From: Bordetella parapertussis
GTDB taxonomy: Bacteria; Pseudomonadota; Gammaproteobacteria; Burkholderiales; Burkholderiaceae_C
DNA length: 19,497 nucleotides
NCBI GenBank assembly: GCA_945888535.1
Contig: CAMDAN010000041.1
Span: 1-19,497 of the forward strand
Reading direction: 5' to 3'
Of the stretch, positions 1 through 19,497 are shown in pieces. Both the position numbers and the translations under genes were made by a program. The notes under the pieces are model-generated. The model ran no database searches. It was given only the letters and a program-made list of their open reading frames with translations, and was not told the origin of the DNA. How positions within the stretch are numbered: the first letter of the stretch is position 1; the number at the start of each line of letters is the position of its first letter.

Positions 1-111
1 AAGCACCAGCCAAGCGGCTTCATCAAAAGCGTTTTGGGTGCCGTGGCCAAAGCTGAGATGGGCACCATCGAGTTGCTTGGCGCAACTGTTCACCAGTTCG
101 ATCAGTGTCAT
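1..111 (-). CDS. prmB: 50S ribosomal protein L3 glutamine methyltransferase, N-terminal fragment (cut by window edge)
   Basis: Only the first 37 codons are present; the gene runs off the left edge. The translation begins [20 protein letters not shown] and continues with an FGHGT..A.DEA..LVL pattern. That pattern is typical of the N-terminal helical domain of PrmB, which methylates a glutamine of ribosomal protein L3. The catalytic SAM-binding part with its NPPY motif is outside the window, so the call rests on the N-terminus and on gene order. The start ATG (111-109) overlaps the dapE stop (110-108) in an ATGA arrangement, which implies translational coupling at the end of the dap operon. A different methyltransferase of the HemK/PrmC family is the main alternative. 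Confidence 0.72.
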
Positions 112-1268
112 GCACGGGCCTGATGATCAAGGCGCTCTAAGACTTTACGGTAAATATTTTTAAGCGGTTCGATATCAGCGACGCTGACATGTTCATTGAG
201 TTTGTGAATGGTGGCGTTGGGCGGGCCGACTTCAACGACTTGAGTGCAAACTTGCGCAATAAAGCGGCCGTCGCTGGTTCCGCCGGTGGTGGAGAGTTGC
301 GTTTGCAGCCCAGTCTCTTCCAATATAGCGCCGCGAACGGCTTCAACTAAGACGCCTGGGGTAGTCAGAAAAGGCAGGCCGCCAATCGTCCAGACCAGCT
401 CATACTCCAAAGCGTGTTTTTTGAGCACGGCAATCAGGCGCTCTTGTAAAGACGCGGGCGTGGATTCGGTAGAAAACCGGAAGTTAAAGTCCAGAACCAA
501 ATGCCCCGGGATCACATTACTCACGCCCGTTCCGCCATGCACATTGCTGACCTGCCAGCTCGTGGGCGGAAAGAAGTCGTTGCCTTTGTCCCATTCAATC
601 GTTACCAAATCGGCTAAGGCCGGGGCTAACAAGTGAATCGGATTTTTCGCTAAATGCGGGTAGGCGATATGGCCTTGTATGCCTTTGACCGTCAGCTTGC
701 CGCTCATAGTTCCACGCCTGCCGTTTTTAATCATGTCGCCGGTTTTTTCGACCGAGGTGGGCTCGCCCACAATGCACCAGTCCAGCGTTTCGCCGCGAGC
801 GGTGAGGGCCTCGCACACTTTGATCGTGCCATCGACTGCGGGGCCTTCTTCGTCACTGGTGAGTAAGAAGGCAATGTTGATAGCCGCAGAAGGCTCTGCC
901 GCAGCAAATTCTTCACACGCCACCACCATCGCTGCCAGTGACGTTTTCATGTCGCTGGCACCTCGGCCAAACAATTTACCGTCGCGGTGGGTGGGGATAA
1001 AAGGGTTGCTGGCCCATTGGTCGATGGGGCCGGTGGGCACCACATCGGTATGGCCTGCGAATACCAGCGTTTTTGCGCCTGCGTGTGCGCTGCGTTTAAT
1101 CGCCCACAGGTTGCTCACCCGAAACGTATCGGGCCCGCTGTCTATGCGCTCACATTCAAAACCGAGGGCGCTAAGCCGCGCGGTGATGATGTCCAAGCAG
1201 CGCGCGTCTTCGGGGGTAACCGAAGGGCGCGAGAGGAGTTGCTCGGTGAGCTGAAGGGTGCGAGACAT
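108..1268 (-). CDS. dapE: Succinyl-diaminopimelate desuccinylase
   Basis: Hydrolyses N-succinyl-LL-2,6-diaminopimelate to LL-diaminopimelate and succinate in the cytoplasm, the last succinylase step towards meso-DAP and lysine. The 386-aa length matches the M20 metallopeptidase-like DapE family (about 375-385 aa). Visible di-zinc and catalytic residues are H73 and D75 in AGHTDVVP, D106 in GRGASDMK, E140/E141 in TSDEEGP, E169 in VGEPTSVE, and a C-terminal histidine in TIHKLNEHV. The GGTSDGRFI stretch near residue 330 is also typical of DapE. It lies 20 bp downstream of dapD and overlaps prmB by 4 bp, so dapC, dapD, dapE and prmB look like one transcription unit. No anomaly is seen. Confidence 0.97.
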
Positions 1269-1288
1269 TGAAAAAGACTTTAAGAAGA

Positions 1289-2122
1289 TCAGTCGCGCAA
1301 CAAGTCGTTGATGCTGGTCTTGGAGCGGGTTTGTGCGTCTACGCGCTTGACCACGATCGCGGCGTACATGCTAAAGGGTGCGCCGTTGGCCGCTACTTTA
1401 GGAATGTTACCGCTCACAACGACGGAGCCGCTGGTAACGCGCCCGTAGGAAATCTCACCAGTGGCGCGGTCAAAAATGGGAGTGCTTTGGCCGATGAAAA
1501 CACCCATGCCGAGAACAGAGTTTTCTTCGATGATCACGCCTTCAACCACTTCCGAACGAGCGCCAATAAAGCAGTTGTCTTCAATGATGGTAGGGCCGGC
1601 TTGCATCGGCTCCAATACGCCGCCAATGCCAACGCCGCCTGATAAGTGAACGTTCTTACCAATTTGTGCGCATGAACCCACGGTCGCCCAGGTGTCCACC
1701 ATCGTGCCGGAATCGACATACGCGCCGATGTTGACATACGAGGGCATCAAAATTGCGCCAGCGGCTACGAAGCTTCCGCGTCGCGCTACGGCAGGAGGCA
1801 CCACGCGTACGCCTGAGGCCTTGAGTTCTGCTTCCGTCATGTGGCCAAATTTGGTGTCCACTTTGTCGTAGAAAGCCAAGTCGCCAGACTTCATGACACG
1901 GTTGTCTTTTAAACGAAACGACAACAGCACAGCTTTCTTGATCCACTGGTGCGTTGTCCATTGGCCCACGCCGTCGCGGGTAGCAACGCGCAAAGTGCCG
2001 TTGTTCAACTGGGCGATGACGTGCTCGACTGCGTCAGCAACTTCTTTGGGTGCGGATTGGATAGAAATATTGGCGCGGTCTTCCCACGCGGCATCAAGGA
2101 TCGTTTGCAATTGTTGGCTCAT
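1289..2122 (-). CDS. dapD: 2,3,4,5-tetrahydropyridine-2,6-dicarboxylate N-succinyltransferase
   Basis: Transfers succinyl from succinyl-CoA to tetrahydrodipicolinate, opening the succinylase route to DAP. The protein is 277 aa from the chosen ATG, close to E. coli DapD (274 aa). It has an alpha-helical N-terminal part, then a left-handed beta-helix built of hexapeptide-type repeats ([20 protein letters not shown] and onward through about residue 240), and motifs such as [17 protein letters not shown] and [14 protein letters not shown]. An upstream in-frame TTG at 2137 would add five residues (MKEQR). The ATG at 2122-2120 is preferred because a GAAAGAG-like ribosome binding site lies about 7 nt before it and MSQQLQ is the usual N-terminus. 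It lies between dapC (about 40 bp upstream) and dapE. Confidence 0.96.
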
Positions 2123-2164
2123 GCGCTGCTCTTTCAAAGGAGGGGTTTAACTAAGATACAAAAA

Positions 2165-3367
2165 TCAGTGACGGGACTGCACAAACTGCACGATGCGCGT
2201 GGCAGCTTCAATACATTCATCGGTGTGCGCGACCAGCGCCATCCGAATCCGGTGGGCGCCAGGGTTGTGTCCTCGCGCTTCTCGCGCCAGATAACTCCCC
2301 GGCAAAACCATCAGATTGTAGGCAGCGTAAAGATCACGGGCGAAGTCTTCGTCGCTGCCCTCGATACCCGCCCACAAATAAAAACCGGCATCCGGCAAAG
2401 CCACATCCATCACCTTTGCCAACATGGGTGTGACCTGTGCGAACTTTTCGCGGTACATCCTGCGGTTGTCAATAACATGCGCCTCGTCGTTCCAAGCGGC
2501 AATACTGGCCGTTTGAACCACCGGGCTCATGGCGCTGCCGTGGTAGGTGCGATAGAGTAAAAACGGTTTGATGAGGGCGGCGTCGCCTGCGCAAAAGCCA
2601 CTGCGCATACCGGGCACATTGCTGCGCTTTGACAAACTCGTAAAGCTCACGAGGTTTTTGAAATCGTGGCGGCCGAGTTGTGTCGCTGCTTCCAACCCAC
2701 CCAAAGGCGCTTCGTCGCGGAAGTAAATTTCGCTGTAACACTCGTCTGAGGCAATCACAAAACCAAAGCGGTCGCTCAGATCAAAAAGTTTTTTCCATTC
2801 TTGCAGCGGCATGACTGCGCCAGCGGGGTTGCCCGGCGAGCAGACAAACAGCAATTGGGTTTGGGTCCACACCGATTCAGGAACGCTGTCCCAGTCTTGG
2901 GCAAAGTTGCGCTTGGGGTCAGAGTGAACGAAATACGGTGCGCCACCACTGAGTAGCGCGGCGCCTTCGTAAATTTGGTAGAAAGGATTGGGGCAGACTA
3001 CCCAGAGCTTCTCTGCGCCAGCCTTTGGGGAAACGATGGTTTGCGCAAAGGCAAATAGCGCTTCGCGGGAGCCGTTGATTGGCAAAATTTGGGTGGCTGC
3101 GTTGAGGTTCAAGCCGTAGCGACGGTGCGCCCACTGCGCTATAGCGCCTCGCAATGCGGGCTCGCCCGCGGTTGCAGGATAAGCCGACAAGCCCGAGCCC
3201 AGGACCGCGTCGCTAAAGGCTTGTTTGATCAAAGCAGGAGTTGCGTGGCGGGGCTCACCAATACCCAAGCTGATGGGGGCGTAGCTGGCGTTGGGTTTAA
3301 CGGACGAAAAAAGCTGGCGCAGGCGTTCAAAGGGATAAGCCTGCAAAAGCGATAAATTGGGGTTCAT
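2165..3367 (-). CDS. dapC: Succinyldiaminopimelate transaminase (PLP-dependent, class I/II aminotransferase)
   Basis: Converts N-succinyl-2-amino-6-ketopimelate to N-succinyl-LL-DAP with glutamate as amino donor. It is a 400-aa fold-type I aminotransferase. The PLP Schiff-base lysine is K247 in SFTSLSKRSNVPGMRSGF. The cofactor-binding D208 and Y211 lie in SDECYSEIY, and the SPGNPAG motif is at about 177-183. N-terminal LGIGEPRHATP and GEPALRGAIAQWA are typical of DapC rather than of general aspartate aminotransferases. Adjacency to dapD and dapE confirms the role. The ATG at 3367 has no strong Shine-Dalgarno sequence and may follow a short leader. It is the first gene of the minus-strand operon; a 115-bp gap separates it from the divergent HPt gene. 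Confidence 0.93.
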   Translation of the reverse strand: MNPNLSLLQAYPFERLRQLFSSVKPNASYAPISLGIGEPRHATPALIKQAFSDAVLGSGLSAYPATAGEPALRGAIAQWAHRRYGLNLNAATQILPINGSREALFAFAQTIVSPKAGAEKLWVVCPNPFYQIYEGAALLSGGAPYFVHSDPKRNFAQDWDSVPESVWTQTQLLFVCSPGNPAGAVMPLQEWKKLFDLSDRFGFVIASDECYSEIYFRDEAPLGGLEAATQLGRHDFKNLVSFTSLSKRSNVPGMRSGFCAGDAALIKPFLLYRTYHGSAMSPVVQTASIAAWNDEAHVIDNRRMYREKFAQVTPMLAKVMDVALPDAGFYLWAGIEGSDEDFARDLYAAYNLMVLPGSYLAREARGHNPGAHRIRMALVAHTDECIEAATRIVQFVQSRH

Positions 3368-3482
3368 GGGGTCGTATTATCGTCGAGTCATCGTTAAACT
3401 CAGCCTCAGGCAGGGCGTTTTAAGACCGATAAGCGCGCCGCTTTGCTTGAACTATTAAAACATTCATCATTCAGGGGGCTGG

Positions 3483-3842
3483 GTGGACTATCGCTACTTA
3501 GATATCGAACGCGCCATGGGCTTCATGGGCGATGCGCAGGGCGTAAGGGATATGTTGAGCGTTCTTTGCGCGACCCTCAAGACCGATCTTCCCAAAATGC
3601 AAGAGCGTCTTCGTGCCAATGACTTGCCAGCCTTGCAGAAAAACTTGCACTCGCTCAAAGGCTTTATTCCCATTTTTTCTAACCAAGCGCTGGCGGATCA
3701 ACTGATTGCTCTTGAACGGATGGCCAGAACCCCAGACTTAGCCCTAGACGCCAAAGACTTTCAGCCGCAGTGTGAAGTGTTTTTTAATGCGATTGCTGAT
3801 TTGTCGCAAGAAGCGGAAAACTACCTCGCCCAGCCGATGTAG
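3483..3842 (+). CDS. Orphan HPt-domain phosphotransfer protein
   Basis: A 119-aa, probably all-helical protein that fits a stand-alone histidine phosphotransfer (HPt) domain. The signature is NLHSLKGF, with H56 as the predicted phosphoryl-accepting histidine followed by the usual K-G. Such proteins carry phosphate between hybrid sensor kinases and response regulators. No kinase, receiver domain or regulator gene is visible nearby, so its partner is unknown. The start is a GTG at 3483 preceded by a G-rich CAGGGGGCTGG stretch that can serve as ribosome binding site; no upstream in-frame ATG gives a longer homologous N-terminus. It is divergent from dapC and 147 bp before smc. The HPt assignment rests on the motif and helical character. 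Confidence 0.75.
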   Translation: MDYRYLDIERAMGFMGDAQGVRDMLSVLCATLKTDLPKMQERLRANDLPALQKNLHSLKGFIPIFSNQALADQLIALERMARTPDLALDAKDFQPQCEVFFNAIADLSQEAENYLAQPM

Positions 3843-11850: not shown

Positions 11851-13304
11851 ATGTTCGAACAAACCTTTAAAAATATCGATGACATCCTGCACAAAGACGC
11901 GGGGTGCACTGGCGAGCTGGACTACACCGAGCAATCCTCCTGGCTGCTGTTTTTAAAGTACCTCGACGCCTTAGAGGCCGACAAAGCCACCGAGGCGGTA
12001 CTAGAAGGCAGCGACTACCCATTCATCTTGAGTGAGCCCTACCGCTGGTCGGTCTGGGCTACCCCTAAAGCTGCAGACGGCAAGATCGACCATAACGTCG
12101 CGCTCACGGGTGACGACCTCAAAGCCTTGTCAACGGCAAACTGTTTCCGTACCTAGCGGGCTTCAAGCAACGCGCCAGCGGGCCGCAGACCATCGAATAC
12201 AAAATCGGTGAAGTCTTTGGCGAAATCACCAACAAAATCCAAAGCGGCTACAACCTGCGCGACGTGATCGACCGCATCGACGAACTGCGCTTTGGCAGCC
12301 AGGCGCAAAAGCACGAGCTGTCGCACCTGTACGAAGCCAAGATCAAAAACATGGGCAACGCAGGGCGCAACGGCGGCGAATACTACACACCTCGCCCTCT
12401 GATTCGCGCCATGATCGAGGTGATGCAACCCCAAATTGGCGAACGCATTTACGACGCGGCCTGCGGATCAGCAGGCTTTTTGTGCGAAGCCTTTGCGTAC
12501 TTGAGCCCCAAAGCCACCAAGGCCGATGACCTGGACACGCTGCAAAAACGCACCTTCTACGGCAAAGAGAAAAAGAGCCTCGCCTACGTGATCGGCATCA
12601 TGAACATGATCCTGCACGGCATCGAGGCGCCCAATATCGTACACACCAACACGCTGGGCGAAAACATCAACGACATCCAAGAGCGCGACCGCTACGACGT
12701 GATCCTGGCCAACCCGCCCTTTGGCGGCAAAGAGCGCAAAGAGGTGCAGCAAAACTTCCCCATCAAAACCGGGGAAACCGCCTTCTTGTTCATGCAGCAC
12801 TTCATCAAAAGCCTGCGTGCCGGGGGCCGTGCGGCGGTGGTCATCAAAAACACGTTTCTGAGCAACACCGACAACGCCAGCGTGGCCCTGCGCAAACAAC
12901 TGCTGACCGACTGCAACCTGCACACCGTGCTGGACTGCCCCGGCGGTACCTTTCAGGGCGCGGGCGTCAAAACCGTGGTGCTGTTCTTCACCAAAGGCGA
13001 ACCGACAAGCAAAACTTGGTTCTACCAACTCGACCCCGGCCGCAACATGGGCAAAACCAACCCGCTGAACGACGCGGACTTGGTGGAGTTTGTGCAACTG
13101 CAAAAAACCTTTGCCGAATCGCCCAAAAGCTGGAGCGTGGCAGCCAACAGCGTGAACCTGGACACGTTTGAACTGTCGGTGAAAAACCCGAACGGCGGCG
13201 AAGAAGTAGTGCACCGCAGCCCGGCCGACATATTGGACGAGATCGTCGCGCTGGATGCCGAGGCTGCGGATGTGTTGAGTAATATTCGGGGGTTGTTGGC
13301 GTGA
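11851..13304 (+). pseudogene. hsdM: Type I restriction-modification methylase subunit HsdM, interrupted by a -1 nt frameshift
   Basis: HsdM is the N6-adenine methyltransferase subunit of a type I enzyme and pairs with HsdS. The reading frame opened at 11851 (MFEQTFKNIDDILHKDAG) stops at a TAG ending at 12156 after 101 codons. The rest of the protein continues in another frame from 12129 (VNGKLFPYLAGFKQRASG) to the TGA at 13304; its first in-frame ATG is at 12264. Joined at 12127-12129 the product is about 484 aa, normal for the EcoAI/EcoEI-like family. Motif I is DAACGSAGF (about 12449-12475) and catalytic motif IV is NPPF (about 12711-12722); GGEYYTPRPL is also present. One base appears lost in a codon that would read TTN before GTC. 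The 346-aa downstream frame alone keeps both catalytic motifs but lacks about 137 N-terminal residues. A sequencing error is a real alternative to a true mutation. The stop overlaps the hsdS start. Confidence 0.88.
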
Positions 13305-14509: not shown

Positions 14510-15223
14510 ATGTCGTCAAAAGCACATCGCTCAGAAGAAATCAACGCACTCCGGATTGCTCTGCCCCTTTTCGAATCAATCTATGGGCCTTGCACGCCAA
14601 TTCCTGAAGTTGTTGATAGGCCTGATGCAGCCTACAAAACACAGACAGGAAAAACCATTGGCGTCGAAATCATTGGCATGGACTCTAGTGAGTATTTGCA
14701 ACACACCAATACTGGTCTGAGTCAAATCAAGCGCAGAATTCCTGAATCTGCAAAGGCCCACTACCACGAAGGCCTACCGGGCGCGACAAGAATTCAATTC
14801 TTTCCGGCAGCCACGGCTCACAACATTGTCGAAAAGAAAAACCACAAATACGCTGAATATGCCAATGGATCAATCCGGTACGACGAAATTATTCTGCTGA
14901 TTCATACCCGAAACGTCAGCATCACCAACCATCCAAACTTTCCTGAACAAGACTACCTTTTCACCTTAGAAGCTGGGCTGAGATCAAACAACCTCCTGTT
15001 TGACAGGGCACTGCTAGTCAATTACAAAAGCGAGGATGCGTTAGAGGTCTATCGAAAAAACTATCGTCTGCTGTCACCATCCAAGGACTACCGAGCCATG
15101 GACTGGCTTTCCGGCAGTTATTACATGGATCAACAAATTGGACTTGTTCGCCTTGGCAGTGAAGGCGGGCTTATTTCAATCGATGGACGAATTCAAGCAG
15201 TCATCAAGACTGTGTCGGCCTAG
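14510..15223 (+). CDS. Unrecognised 237-aa protein inside the hsd operon
   Basis: I do not recognise a named family. The protein is soluble (no membrane segment or signal peptide) and mixed alpha/beta. Seen: RPDAAYKTQTGKTIGVEIIG (residues 37-56), with D39 and E53 spaced as in many degenerate PD-(D/E)XK nuclease-like folds; and RYDEIILLIHTR, a hydrophobic strand of the kind that follows in such proteins. The expected lysine of an E-x-K motif is not obvious, so nuclease activity is a guess. The start ATG is 18 bp after the hsdS stop, with AGAGGA about 13 nt upstream. Base composition is AT-richer than hsdM and hsdR (43% GC in a hand count of 14881-14940, against 63% in 12781-12840), which suggests separate acquisition. 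Its place suggests an accessory or defence role. Confidence 0.7.
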   Translation: MSSKAHRSEEINALRIALPLFESIYGPCTPIPEVVDRPDAAYKTQTGKTIGVEIIGMDSSEYLQHTNTGLSQIKRRIPESAKAHYHEGLPGATRIQFFPAATAHNIVEKKNHKYAEYANGSIRYDEIILLIHTRNVSITNHPNFPEQDYLFTLEAGLRSNNLLFDRALLVNYKSEDALEVYRKNYRLLSPSKDYRAMDWLSGSYYMDQQIGLVRLGSEGGLISIDGRIQAVIKTVSA

Positions 15224-15336: not shown

Positions 15337-15386
15337 TCTGAATTCAAAGTCGCTACACTTCTTCGAACAAACTTTTCAGCTTGCCC

Positions 15387-16232
15387 ATGACCAAAAACCG
15401 CATTGCCATTCAGCACCATGCCACTTTCGAGAGCATCCGTCAGCTCGACTTAAATGACAATGAGTTTTGGTTGGCTCGTGAGCTAGCCCCGCTGCTTGAC
15501 TATCAAGCATGGCGAAATTTCACTCAAGTTATTGACAAGGCCATCCAAGCGTGTGTTAAGTCTGGCAATCCGGTAGAGGACAATTTTGTGGACGTCAACA
15601 AAATGGTCGACATTGGCTCTGGCGCACAGCGTGAACTGGCCGATGTTCGCCTGTCGCGCTACGCCTGCTATTTGATTGTTCAAAATGGCGACCCGTCCAA
15701 GCCGGTCGTTGCTAACGGGCAAACTTACTTTGCGATGCAGACCCGGCGGCAAGAGCTGGAGGATAGCGCTAAGTTTGCTCAGTTATCTGAAGATGACAAA
15801 CGCGTGGCAATTCGAAACGAACTGGCTGCGCACAACAAGCATTTGGCGGCTGCGGCCAAAGATGCGGGCGTAGAAAGTAGCCTCGATTACGCCATTTTCC
15901 AGGACCACGGCTACAAGGGGCTGTATGGCGGCTTGGGTGCTAAAGACATCCACGCCAACAAGGGCTTAAAGAAGAGCCAGAAAATTCTGGACCACATGGG
16001 CAGCACGGAGCTGGCGGCCAATTTGTTTCGCGCAACGCAAACAGAAGATAAGTTGAAACGCGAAAACGTTCAAGGTAAGCAACGCGCCAACAAGGCCCAT
16101 TACGAGGTAGGCGAAAAAGTGCGTGCCACCATCAAAGAAATCGGCGGCACGATGCCAGAGGCTTTGCCTACGCCCAACCAAAGCGTGAAGCAAATCGAAA
16201 GCGCCCAGAAAAAGCTGGACGGTAAAAAATGA
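15387..16232 (+). CDS. dinD: DNA damage-inducible protein D (DinD) family protein
   Basis: E. coli DinD (274 aa) is SOS-induced and reported to inhibit RecA-mediated strand exchange; the cellular role of most homologues is unclear. This 281-aa protein matches the family along its length: ESIRQLDLNDNEFWLARELA near the N-terminus (a Bro-N-like region), RLSRYACYLIVQNGDPSKPVVANGQTYFA in the middle, and DYAIFQDHGYKGLYGGLGAKDI, KILDHMGSTELAANLFRATQ and NKAHYEVGEKVR in the C-terminal half. The ATG at 15387 is preferred over an in-frame TTG at 15381 that would add two residues; neither has a clear Shine-Dalgarno. It sits between hsdS and hsdR on the same strand, suggesting an accessory of the restriction system rather than a core SOS gene. 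The stop overlaps a 40-codon ORF by 4 bp (ATGA). Confidence 0.9.
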   Translation: MTKNRIAIQHHATFESIRQLDLNDNEFWLARELAPLLDYQAWRNFTQVIDKAIQACVKSGNPVEDNFVDVNKMVDIGSGAQRELADVRLSRYACYLIVQNGDPSKPVVANGQTYFAMQTRRQELEDSAKFAQLSEDDKRVAIRNELAAHNKHLAAAAKDAGVESSLDYAIFQDHGYKGLYGGLGAKDIHANKGLKKSQKILDHMGSTELAANLFRATQTEDKLKRENVQGKQRANKAHYEVGEKVRATIKEIGGTMPEALPTPNQSVKQIESAQKKLDGKK

Positions 16233-16354: not shown

Positions 16355-18706
16355 ATGAACGAAGCCGACACCCGCGCCGAACACATCGACCCGGCTCTAG
16401 CCGCCGCAGGCTGGGGCAAGGTAGATGGCAGCCGCATTCTGCGTGAGCACAACATCACGGCGGGCCGCCTTCAAGGCGCAGGCAAGCGGGCGCGGGCTGA
16501 CATTGCCGACTATGTGCTGGTCTACCGCCACACCAAGCTGGCTGTGGTTGAAGCCAAGGCCTGGGCCAAGCCGCTGACCGAGGGCGTGGGCCAGGCCAAG
16601 AGCTACGCGGCCAAGCTGTCCATTCGCCACACCTACGCCACCAACGGCCAAGGTATTTACGGCATCGACATGCATACGGGAGCCGAGGCTGAAGTGGCCC
16701 GCTACCCCACACCTGACGAGTTGTGGAACATGACCTTTGGCGAGACTGAGGCACAAGCCGCCGCGTGGCGAAAACGCTTTGCCGCCGTGCCGCTCGAAGA
16801 GAAAGGCGGCACCTGGACGGGCCGCTATTACCAAGAGACAGCCATCACCCGCGTGTTGGAATCGGTAGCCCAAGGTAATGACCGTGTATTGCTGACATTG
16901 GCCACTGGCACTGGCAAAACATTCATTGCGTTTCAGCTGGCGTGGAAGCTGTTCCACAGCCGCTGGAATTTGAAGGACTGGAAAGAGGGTCTAGCGGCGG
17001 ATGCTGAGCCTAGCCGCCGCCCGCGCATTTTGTTTTTGGCAGACCGCAACATCTTGGCCAACCAGGCCTACAACGCGTTTTCGCCTTTCCCTGACGATGC
17101 GCTGGTGCGCATTGAGCCCGATGAGATTAAAAAGAAAGGGCGCGTGCCCAAGAACGGCAGCGTTTTCTTCACGATCTTTCAGACCTTCATGAGCGGCCCC
17201 GAAGGCACGCCTTATTTTGGCGACTACCCCAAGGACTTTTTTGACTTCATCATCATCGACGAGTGCCACCGGGGCGGCGCTAATGACGAAGGCAGCTGGC
17301 GGGCAATTTTGGAGTACTTCAGCCCCGCCGTTCAGCTGGGCCTGACAGCCACGCCCAAGCGCACGATCAACGCCGATACCTATGGCTATTTTGGCGACCC
17401 GGTTTACACCTACTCGCTCAAGGAAGGCATCAACGACGGCTTTTTGACGCCGTTTCGCGTCAAACAATTTGCCACCACGCTGGACGACTACGTTTACACC
17501 GCCGACGACACGGTGATGGATGGGGAAGTAGAACAAGGCAAGCGCTACGAAGAAAAAGACTTCAACCGCCTTATCGAGATCAAAGAGCGCGAAGCCTACC
17601 GTGTGAAGCTCTTGATGGACAGCATCGATCAGCGCGAAAAGACGATTGTGTTTTGCGCCAACCAACAGCACGCGCTGATGGTGCGCGACCTGATCAACCA
17701 AATAAAAACTAGCCCTGCGCCCGATTATTGCGTACGCGTAACCGCCAACGACGGCAAGCTGGGTGAGCAGTACCTGAGCCAATTTCAGGACAACGAAAAA
17801 ACGCTTCCTACCATCCTGACCACATCGCAAAAACTATCGACCGGGGTAGACGCCCGCAACGTTCGCAACATCGTGCTGATGCGGCCGGTGAATTCGATGA
17901 TCGAGTTCAAACAAATCATCGGACGAGGTACACGGCTTTACGACGGAAAAGATTACTTCACGATTTATGACTTTGTGAAGGCGCACCACAAGTTCAACGA
18001 TTCCGATTGGGATGGCGAGCCGGTGGAACCCGAGACACCTCCCGAGAAGCCTTTGCCACCCAGCTGGCAAGAGCAAGACCCGACCGAGCCGCCTAAGTTG
18101 CGCGAGCCGGGTTCCGAGCGACCTGAAAAACTGGTCGTCAAGCTGGCTGACGGGAAAATCCGCAACATCCAGCACATCGCATCCACCAGCTACTGGGGGC
18201 CAGACGGAAAGCCGTTGTCGCCCGCGCAATTTTTGGAAAATTTGTTTGGCGCTCTGCCTGAGTTTTTCAAAAACGAAGACGAGTTACGCAACCTATGGGC
18301 TGACCCATCCACGCGCAAAGCACTATTGCTCGGCCTAGCCGAAAAAGGCTTCGGCCGCGACCCGCTGCGCGAAATGCAGCGAATCATTGAAGCCGAAAAA
18401 AGCGATTTGTTTGATGTTCTGGCCTACGTCGCCTTCGCGCTGCCAACTGAAACCCGCGCCACCCGCGCCGAACGCGCAAAGGCGCATAACGCACTCACGT
18501 ACGACCAAAAGCAACAAGCCTTTTTAAGCTTCGTTCTCGACCAATACGTAACCCAAGGCGTAGACGAACTAGACGCCGACAAACTCACCCCACTGCTTAA
18601 GCTTCGGTACAACAACGCGATCAACGACGCGATGGCAGATTTGGGAGATGCGGTGCAGGTGAGGAAGGCGTTTGTGGGGTTTCAGCGGAATTTGTATTCG
18701 GCTTAA
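16355..18706 (+). CDS. hsdR: Type I restriction enzyme HsdR (EcoEI-like endonuclease/translocase subunit)
   Basis: Restriction subunit that translocates DNA with ATP and cuts unmodified molecules as part of an R2M2S complex. It is 783 aa, near the EcoEI/EcoAI type (about 810 aa) and much shorter than EcoKI HsdR. The N-terminal nuclease domain shows D52 in ADYVLVYRH with E66 and K68 in VVEAKAW, a PD-(D/E)XK core. The SF2 helicase part has Walker A ATGTGKT (183-189), DECH (302-305), LTATPKRT (330-337) and motif VI IGRGTRLYDGKDYF near 521-534. The C-terminal part after about 560 fits the EcoEI-type C-terminal domain that docks on the methylase. The frame is intact, unlike hsdM. It lies 122 bp after dinD and is separated from hsdS by two cargo genes. 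Confidence 0.97.
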   Translation: MNEADTRAEHIDPALAAAGWGKVDGSRILREHNITAGRLQGAGKRARADIADYVLVYRHTKLAVVEAKAWAKPLTEGVGQAKSYAAKLSIRHTYATNGQGIYGIDMHTGAEAEVARYPTPDELWNMTFGETEAQAAAWRKRFAAVPLEEKGGTWTGRYYQETAITRVLESVAQGNDRVLLTLATGTGKTFIAFQLAWKLFHSRWNLKDWKEGLAADAEPSRRPRILFLADRNILANQAYNAFSPFPDDALVRIEPDEIKKKGRVPKNGSVFFTIFQTFMSGPEGTPYFGDYPKDFFDFIIIDECHRGGANDEGSWRAILEYFSPAVQLGLTATPKRTINADTYGYFGDPVYTYSLKEGINDGFLTPFRVKQFATTLDDYVYTADDTVMDGEVEQGKRYEEKDFNRLIEIKEREAYRVKLLMDSIDQREKTIVFCANQQHALMVRDLINQIKTSPAPDYCVRVTANDGKLGEQYLSQFQDNEKTLPTILTTSQKLSTGVDARNVRNIVLMRPVNSMIEFKQIIGRGTRLYDGKDYFTIYDFVKAHHKFNDSDWDGEPVEPETPPEKPLPPSWQEQDPTEPPKLREPGSERPEKLVVKLADGKIRNIQHIASTSYWGPDGKPLSPAQFLENLFGALPEFFKNEDELRNLWADPSTRKALLLGLAEKGFGRDPLREMQRIIEAEKSDLFDVLAYVAFALPTETRATRAERAKAHNALTYDQKQQAFLSFVLDQYVTQGVDELDADKLTPLLKLRYNNAINDAMADLGDAVQVRKAFVGFQRNLYSA

Positions 18707-18817
18707 ATTATGTCAGCAGATCATCACCTAATTAAACGAAAAGATCCATCCAAGCGAACACCACTGGTTCATAACATCCGCTTTCTCCAGTCATGAACGC
18801 ATTGAAAGAAATACTTA

Positions 18818-19497
18818 ATGAATCTCAAATTCACCGGCACATTTGAATCGCTCAAGGAAAAACTCTCGTCGCTCAACGGCGAATGGAACGAAGATCAACC
18901 TACCAAAAAAGTGCTGCGGGTCAATGAAGGCATTCTCAATTGGTTTATCAGCACTGGAACGCTCCAGTATCAAGGGAAAAGTCCGGGACTAGATCGCTTG
19001 CAGACATCAGTCCCCCATCTGCTCTACCCAGGAGAATTCACAGCACCCAAGGAAGAAATACCTCTCCCTTTGACCCCGGCGTCAAATGAAATTGCAAGGG
19101 CCGATATCGCGACATCACCAGAACAACTTTATCTGCAAGGCAACTTCAAAGACACAGAACTAATCATTGGCATCGTGAATGCAGTTGGCACCGAATACAA
19201 ACGTGTTCTCGATCCGCTGATGGACCGACTAAAAGGATTTGGTTATGAGGTAAAGGAAATTCACGTTTCAAATCTTCTGCCTGAGCCGAACAGCGGTCAA
19301 AGTGAATACGACCGCATAAAGCACTACATGAATAAAGGCGAGGATCTTCGAAAGAAGACAGGAAACAACGCCATCCTGGCCGCTGGCGCAGCTCATAAAA
19401 TTAAAGATTCGCGCAAATCCACTCCAAGGAAGACCGCATACATTGTCAACTCACTGAAACACCCAGAAGAAGTCGATTTCTTGCGCAAGGTATATGG
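18818..19497 (+). CDS. Anti-phage dCTP/dCMP deaminase-like protein, N-terminal part with an added domain (cut by window edge)
   Basis: The frame is open for 226 full codons to the window end. Residues 1-62 form a small domain with GEWNEDQPTKKVLRVNEGIL followed by NWFISTGTLQYQGK. I recall such modules at the front of other defence proteins but cannot name a family. A proline-rich linker follows (about 63-110). From residue 113, TELIIGIVNAVGTEYKRVLD, FGYEVKEIHVSNLL, NNAILAAGAAHKIKDSR and RKTAYIVNSLKHPEEVDFLR closely resemble the P-loop kinase-like half of AvcD/DCD deaminases, which deplete dCTP on phage infection. The P-loop position reads GIVNAVGTE, without the usual GK[ST]. The deaminase half (HAE and PCxxC zinc motifs) should lie beyond the edge and is not seen. 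Start at 18818: GAAAGAA about 7 nt upstream. It lies 111 bp after hsdR. Confidence 0.72.
   Translation, partial: MNLKFTGTFESLKEKLSSLNGEWNEDQPTKKVLRVNEGILNWFISTGTLQYQGKSPGLDRLQTSVPHLLYPGEFTAPKEEIPLPLTPASNEIARADIATSPEQLYLQGNFKDTELIIGIVNAVGTEYKRVLDPLMDRLKGFGYEVKEIHVSNLLPEPNSGQSEYDRIKHYMNKGEDLRKKTGNNAILAAGAAHKIKDSRKSTPRKTAYIVNSLKHPEEVDFLRKVY

Follow-up and report, generated by a model that had tools for sequence, protein, structure and literature searches.

What triggers an anti-phage deaminase that begins with an additional domain is the question raised by the end of a 19,497-nucleotide (nt) stretch of Bordetella parapertussis DNA (contig CAMDAN010000041.1; hereafter, the window). An open reading frame on its forward strand (18818-19495) encodes 226 amino acids (aa) from an ATG at 18818 and runs past the window end. 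A first-pass annotation of the DNA letters had read it as the beginning of an AvcD/DCD-like deaminase with an extra N-terminal module (here N-domain) that might act as sensor or regulator. In infected cells, dC nucleotides are depleted by AvcD, an enzyme that the AvcI RNA restrains (PMC10511110, PMC9455884, and PMC12409362). If the N-domain is a nucleic-acid sensor shared with TIR and RNase effectors, a definite class of ligand and individual residues can be named for the trigger. The deaminase family is already named in public databases; the new elements are the probable nature of the N-domain and its occurrence on TIR effectors as well.

The deaminase and its N-domain

Residues 108 to 226 match the PADLOC dCTPase model (PDLC02373, expectation value (E) 8.8e-32), and residues 114 to 226 match positions 1 to 127 of the 437 in the NCBIfam anti-phage dCTP deaminase model NF041025 (E 1.2e-24), as foreseen for residues 113 to 226, which had been called the kinase-like half. 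No Pfam family was found for the fragment at E up to 1. Its 87 bits against NF041025 fall below the cut-off of 400, as expected because the query is truncated. The full-length counterpart (P0186, 590 aa), 100% identical to the window protein over the 226 aa, passes this cut-off with 472.7 bits and has a nucleotide-kinase-like domain ahead of a deaminase domain, whose zinc motifs (H440AE and P467CHNC) both lie past the window end, where the first-pass annotation had suggested looking for them. The rows shown in the full-length fold search cover these two domains, and the N-domain was searched alone separately. A Pfam scan of P0186 at E up to 1 shows no TIR domain. The alternative of an ordinary dCMP deaminase was rejected: the best house-keeping model, ComEB, reaches 73 against a cut-off of 219, whereas NF041025 passes. 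Judged by these model matches, the window gene is almost certainly an AvcD-type deaminase.

The proposed separate module and linker also held up, as residues 1 to about 72 form a domain of their own, followed by a stretch that is disordered in the P0186 model (Table 1). Residue conservation was counted over 120 aligned relatives, P0186 included, in which identity to the window N-domain falls as low as about 20%. Within the signature hairpin, position 42 is W or F in 120/120, position 43 is aromatic in 117/120, and S or T occupies position 45 in 99/120 and position 46 in 118/120; Q52 and G53 are present in 118 and 119 of the 120, respectively. Ahead of the hairpin, R or K occurs at position 34 in 114/120.

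The P-loop of the kinase-like domain indeed lacks GK[ST], as had been noted, yet this does not set the window protein apart: GxxxxGK[ST] is missing from the first 200 residues of 232 of the 233 gathered proteins of at least 480 aa, whose commonest loop endings are NAVGTE (72), GAVGTE (36), SAVGTE (31), and GAVGTD (24). By these sequence counts, the non-canonical loop is a family-wide build. Two distant deaminase relatives (L068 and L069; frames of 616 and 632 aa, E 2.5e-115 and 4.8e-87), in which the N-domain profile found no N-domain, have loops that look closer to a P-loop (TGRTGSGCSTT and TGPLRSGCTTA, respectively).

Relatives of the N-domain and its predicted ligand

Window residues 4 to 67 match the PADLOC candidate model PDC-S35 (E 8.7e-7), as does the P0186 N-domain at residues 4 to 65 (E 2.9e-7), and with an E limit of 1 this model (PDLC05003) matches 31/31 N-domains, the best of them at 3.4e-13. 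On a Paludisphaera plasmid, the PDC-S35 protein L036 carries the same N-domain (46 bits to the N-domain profile) ahead of a TIR domain of the CAP12 type (E 1.1e-32). Across 395 genomes there are ten PDC-S35 matches, three of which (L056-L058) carry the N-domain before a TIR domain, with E of 5.8e-6 to 3e-4 as computed in a small set. Profile alignment with hhalign of the deaminase N-domains against the four TIR N-domains gives a probability (Prob) of 97.6, and 35 control windows from other parts of the deaminases reach at most 4.3. Profile comparison thereby shows an N-domain common to dCTP deaminases and TIR effectors.

The TIR N-domains in turn lead to the TBP-like domains of RNase HIII and RnlA. 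Against seven such domains, the four TIR N-domains align with Prob 94.7, and the reversed TIR set with Prob 0.3. One RnlA-like protein, which closes the chain of similarity, has a match to RnlA_toxin (E 1.4e-9) and one below the cut-off to the RNase HIII N-domain family DUF3378 (E 3.5e-5); the L056 TIR N-domain also matches DUF3378 under the cut-off (E 0.0028). The direct score of the deaminase N-domain against the RNase HIII/RnlA set, 20.2, exceeds those of 60/60 column shuffles (maximum 13.1), 35/35 control windows (maximum 11.6), and the reversed profile (8.3). Other values weigh against this kinship: without the two RnlA-like repeats, the Prob of the TIR set drops to 5.6, and the direct comparison gives Prob 10 over 21 columns, or 1.5 and 2.8 with the first choice of rows (between runs, three RNase HIII rows were dropped and four added). 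Compared with RNase HIII alone, the direct Prob is 2.9, not significant by itself, and a Pfam search to E 10 lists DUF3378 for none of the 31 N-domains. The profile link of the deaminase N-domain to known TBP-like domains runs by way of the TIR N-domains only. A TBP-like fold and kinship are hence supported but unproven; most likely, the N-domain is TBP-like, of the RnlA/RNase HIII kind, and not a Pfam-grade member of DUF3378.

Two loci found along the way bear TBP-like stretches in other settings. L014 encodes an RnlA-like protein with two such stretches (2419-3525, reverse strand) and an RNase HIII gene on the same 3.9-kb locus. In L015, a 785-aa frame (10-2364, forward strand) combines the domain of a Lon-type protease with a TBP-like stretch, which matches RnlA_toxin weakly (E 0.0099), and with a domain of the RNase HII/HIII type.

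For the isolated N-domain of Ta-RNase H3, the sole ligand is RNA/DNA hybrid, and binding is weak: Tyr43 and His28 make stacking contacts with deoxyriboses, a DNA phosphate is held by Ser45 together with Ser47, 2'-OH groups are recognised by Gly52 and Glu27, and the RNA contact of Arg32 is weak; in the Bst enzyme, Gln54 matters 40-fold (PMC4132731). Aligning the hairpin to the RNase HIII/RnlA set places Tyr on F43 and Ser on T46, with one extra turn residue; an alternative alignment by way of the TIR set shifts the gap by one or two residues towards the C-terminus. Glu27, His28, and Arg32 have no confident placement, and the contact set is therefore matched only in part. The hairpin contact positions, at which binding is predicted, are conserved among the relatives, and we consider that the N-domain is probably a TBP-like nucleic-acid-binding module. 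Its ligand may, more tentatively, be an RNA/DNA hybrid, favoured by analogy because of the RNase H3 precedent alone. A different, unlikely function would be protein-protein or autoinhibitory (KA1-like), the N-domain packing against one of the other two domains, kinase-like or deaminase, or driving oligomer formation, with no nucleic acid bound.

Distribution of the N-domain

The N-domain had been proposed as an architectural variant. As an added domain it stands; as something special to the window locus it does not. Two lists of relatives were drawn up, with 120 listed of 6356 matches (seed P0002) and 120 listed of 1880 (seed P0127). Among the matches listed, the N-domain is present in 99/119 and 113/113 proteins of at least 480 aa, respectively; these shares are biased upward because both seeds carry the N-domain. 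Some of the 20 proteins without it may reflect start-site calls, because one of them, P0007, is identical to P0002 past the N-domain. Absence appears genuine in L003 and L005, where the open upstream frame extends by only 1 and 4 codons; L004, also without the N-domain, has just 18 more codons upstream. Going by the sequences gathered, the architecture is common in the deaminase family.

Other collections gave fewer carriers. An initial scan using the fragment gave no relative in viral contigs and a single one in genome contigs, the truncated deaminase gene L001, which has the N-domain. Among the 395 genomes of its phylum, five AvcD-type matches were found at E 1e-60, with the N-domain in 0/5 loci. 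The N-domain profile listed two of these genomes, of which one, L001's own, is real; L011 was rejected as a carrier, being a chance match within an unrelated protein. The TIR N-domains of L056-L058, from the same draw of genomes, had not passed this profile search. Of 19 viral-contig loci, the ten that include the core's N-terminal portion were checked, and the N-domain occurs in one (L037), a dCTP deaminase encoded at the beginning of an IMG/VR contig of 39 kb (1-1719, forward strand). The fragment matched 47 plasmid records, in no case over 80% of its length, the window N-domain alone matched no plasmid, and the N-domain of one relative gave a single weak plasmid match, leading to L036. E. 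coli genomes, searched for distant DNA similarity, gave no match.

A tree of the remaining domains comprises 81 rows, 53 with the N-domain (of 214 such relatives) and 28 without (of 31). It is a quick build in which long branches meet, and it omits 12 proteins whose domain start the pattern missed, including P0015, P0108, and P0112, counted as lacking the N-domain; P0015 starts with a partial N-domain. At least 9 changes of the N-domain label are needed, compared with 23.5 under shuffling, with 3 of them forced by starred branches, and the window protein falls in a set of 28 rows, 28/28 with the N-domain. These label changes, and the relatives without an N-domain, are what could be expected if it were an expendable fusion leftover on an ordinary AvcD that depends solely on its deaminase and kinase-like domains. 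The hairpin, however, is near-invariant over the 120 relatives despite their low N-domain identity, and the same domain is retained on unrelated TIR effectors, which makes a leftover very improbable.

Control of the deaminase and comparison with known systems

AvcI acts by binding AvcD and inhibiting it, and the RNA disappears once phage stops host transcription (PMC10511110), and avcD has AvcI upstream (PMC9455884). The N-domain could, by this precedent, be a docking site for an AvcI-like antitoxin RNA encoded nearby, in a type III toxin-antitoxin system like AvcID whose deaminase is freed by RNA loss after transcription shut-off. RNA binding is conceivable for a TBP-like domain, and N-domain forms also occur in Vibrio (P0240, P0245, and P0250, by their source names). 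Yet tagged AvcD is given as 60 kDa (PMC10511110), a mass that by our estimate would suit a form lacking the N-domain; RNA control would then not need it. The gap upstream of the window gene measures 111 nt, against about 171 nt for the minimum functional AvcI (PMC10511110). It folds no better than shuffles (z -0.04), shows neither a consensus promoter nor a terminator, and matches nothing in Rfam at E up to 1; the search included no AvcI model, and lack of a recognised RNA family is a weak argument. One short direct repeat was found, inside hsdR, and an RNA overlapping hsdR is possible. We regard docking of an antitoxin RNA as improbable overall.

The explanation we judge best, with evenly balanced confidence, is an AvcD-type (d)CTP deaminase with an N-terminal TBP-like nucleic-acid sensor on a flexible linker. 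The N-domain would bind, through its open beta-sheet face, a nucleic acid that appears or changes in infection, most likely an RNA/DNA hybrid such as replication primers or R-loops. Binding would release or localise the deaminase, which would then remove dC nucleotides and starve phage DNA synthesis. The TBP-like model and the presence of the same domain on TIR effectors make the sensor or regulator role suggested earlier more likely, and on balance we lean towards an N-domain that gates the effector. A broader and rather doubtful proposal is that one interchangeable TBP-like hybrid sensor stands before dCTP deaminases, TIR effectors (PDC-S35), and RNases of the RnlA type, that phage primers or R-loops are the infection signal, and that part of the AvcD family is activated directly by nucleic acid and not by loss of AvcI RNA. 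If such a sensor is common to TIR and RNase effectors, a large share of dCTP deaminases and an uncharacterised PADLOC candidate would come under one idea. Among the titles and abstract openings listed in our literature search, none describes the N-domain on a deaminase or TIR protein or extends RNase HIII-kind hybrid targeting to either, though such a description may be in print.

The window gene lies downstream of a type I restriction-modification system, as the first-pass annotation had it, with the system's genes found upstream (Table 1). In that system hsdM is split, its N-terminal and methylase domains lying in different frames (11851-12156 and 12264-13304, forward strand); this is a real defect or a sequencing error, and the system may be inactive. 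Between hsdS and hsdR lies a gene for a Bro-N protein (15381-16232, forward strand) that matches PADLOC candidate PDC-S13 (E 2.4e-122). Beside hsdS, a 237-aa protein (14510-15223, forward strand) has only a weak Pfam match, to the MunI restriction enzyme (E 0.21), and up to E 1 none in PADLOC.

Table 1. Coordinates in the window of the deaminase gene, its predicted parts, and its upstream neighbours.
Feature	Position	Strand	Basis
HsdR, type I restriction enzyme, upstream neighbour	16355..18706	+	Pfam, PADLOC scans
hsdR-to-deaminase gap, 111 nt, no AvcI-like RNA, promoter, or terminator recognised	18707..18817	+	
AvcD-type anti-phage dCTP deaminase gene, 5' part, 226 codons, cut by window end	18818..19495	+	PADLOC, NCBIfam matches; P0186
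Predicted N-terminal TBP-like domain, residues 1-72, beta-alpha-beta-beta-beta-beta-alpha	18818..19033	+	
Signature hairpin NWFISTGTLQYQG, residues 41-53	18938..18976	+	conservation over 120 aligned relatives
Linker, residues 73-112, partly disordered	19034..19153	+	predicted local distance difference test (pLDDT) <50 at 81-96, P0186 model
Kinase-like domain, first part, residues 113-226 (domain reaches ~307 in P0186)	19154..19495	+	
Non-canonical P-loop GIVNAVGTE, residues 118-126	19169..19195	+	232/233 relatives without GxxxxGK[ST]

Set beside known systems, P0186 is like AvcD (NF041025, PDLC02373) in having a kinase-like domain with a non-canonical P-loop and a zinc deaminase. NF041025 begins at its residue 114 and the PADLOC match at 108, leaving the N-domain outside both matches, and L003, L004, and L005 are AvcD relatives that, unlike P0186, lack it. 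PDC-S35 and the window protein have the N-domain in common and differ in their effectors, TIR (PF10137) in the four PDC-S35 members examined and a deaminase in the window family. Relative to the RNase HIII N-domain, the hairpin turn is one residue longer in the alignment, and there is no RNase domain. TBP-like domains of the RNase HIII kind occur on some RNase LS proteins, where they have been read as hybrid targeting (PMC3710099); the TBP-like repeats of RnlA/RNase LS are 13% identical to the N-domain, and the effector of RNase LS is a HEPN RNase.
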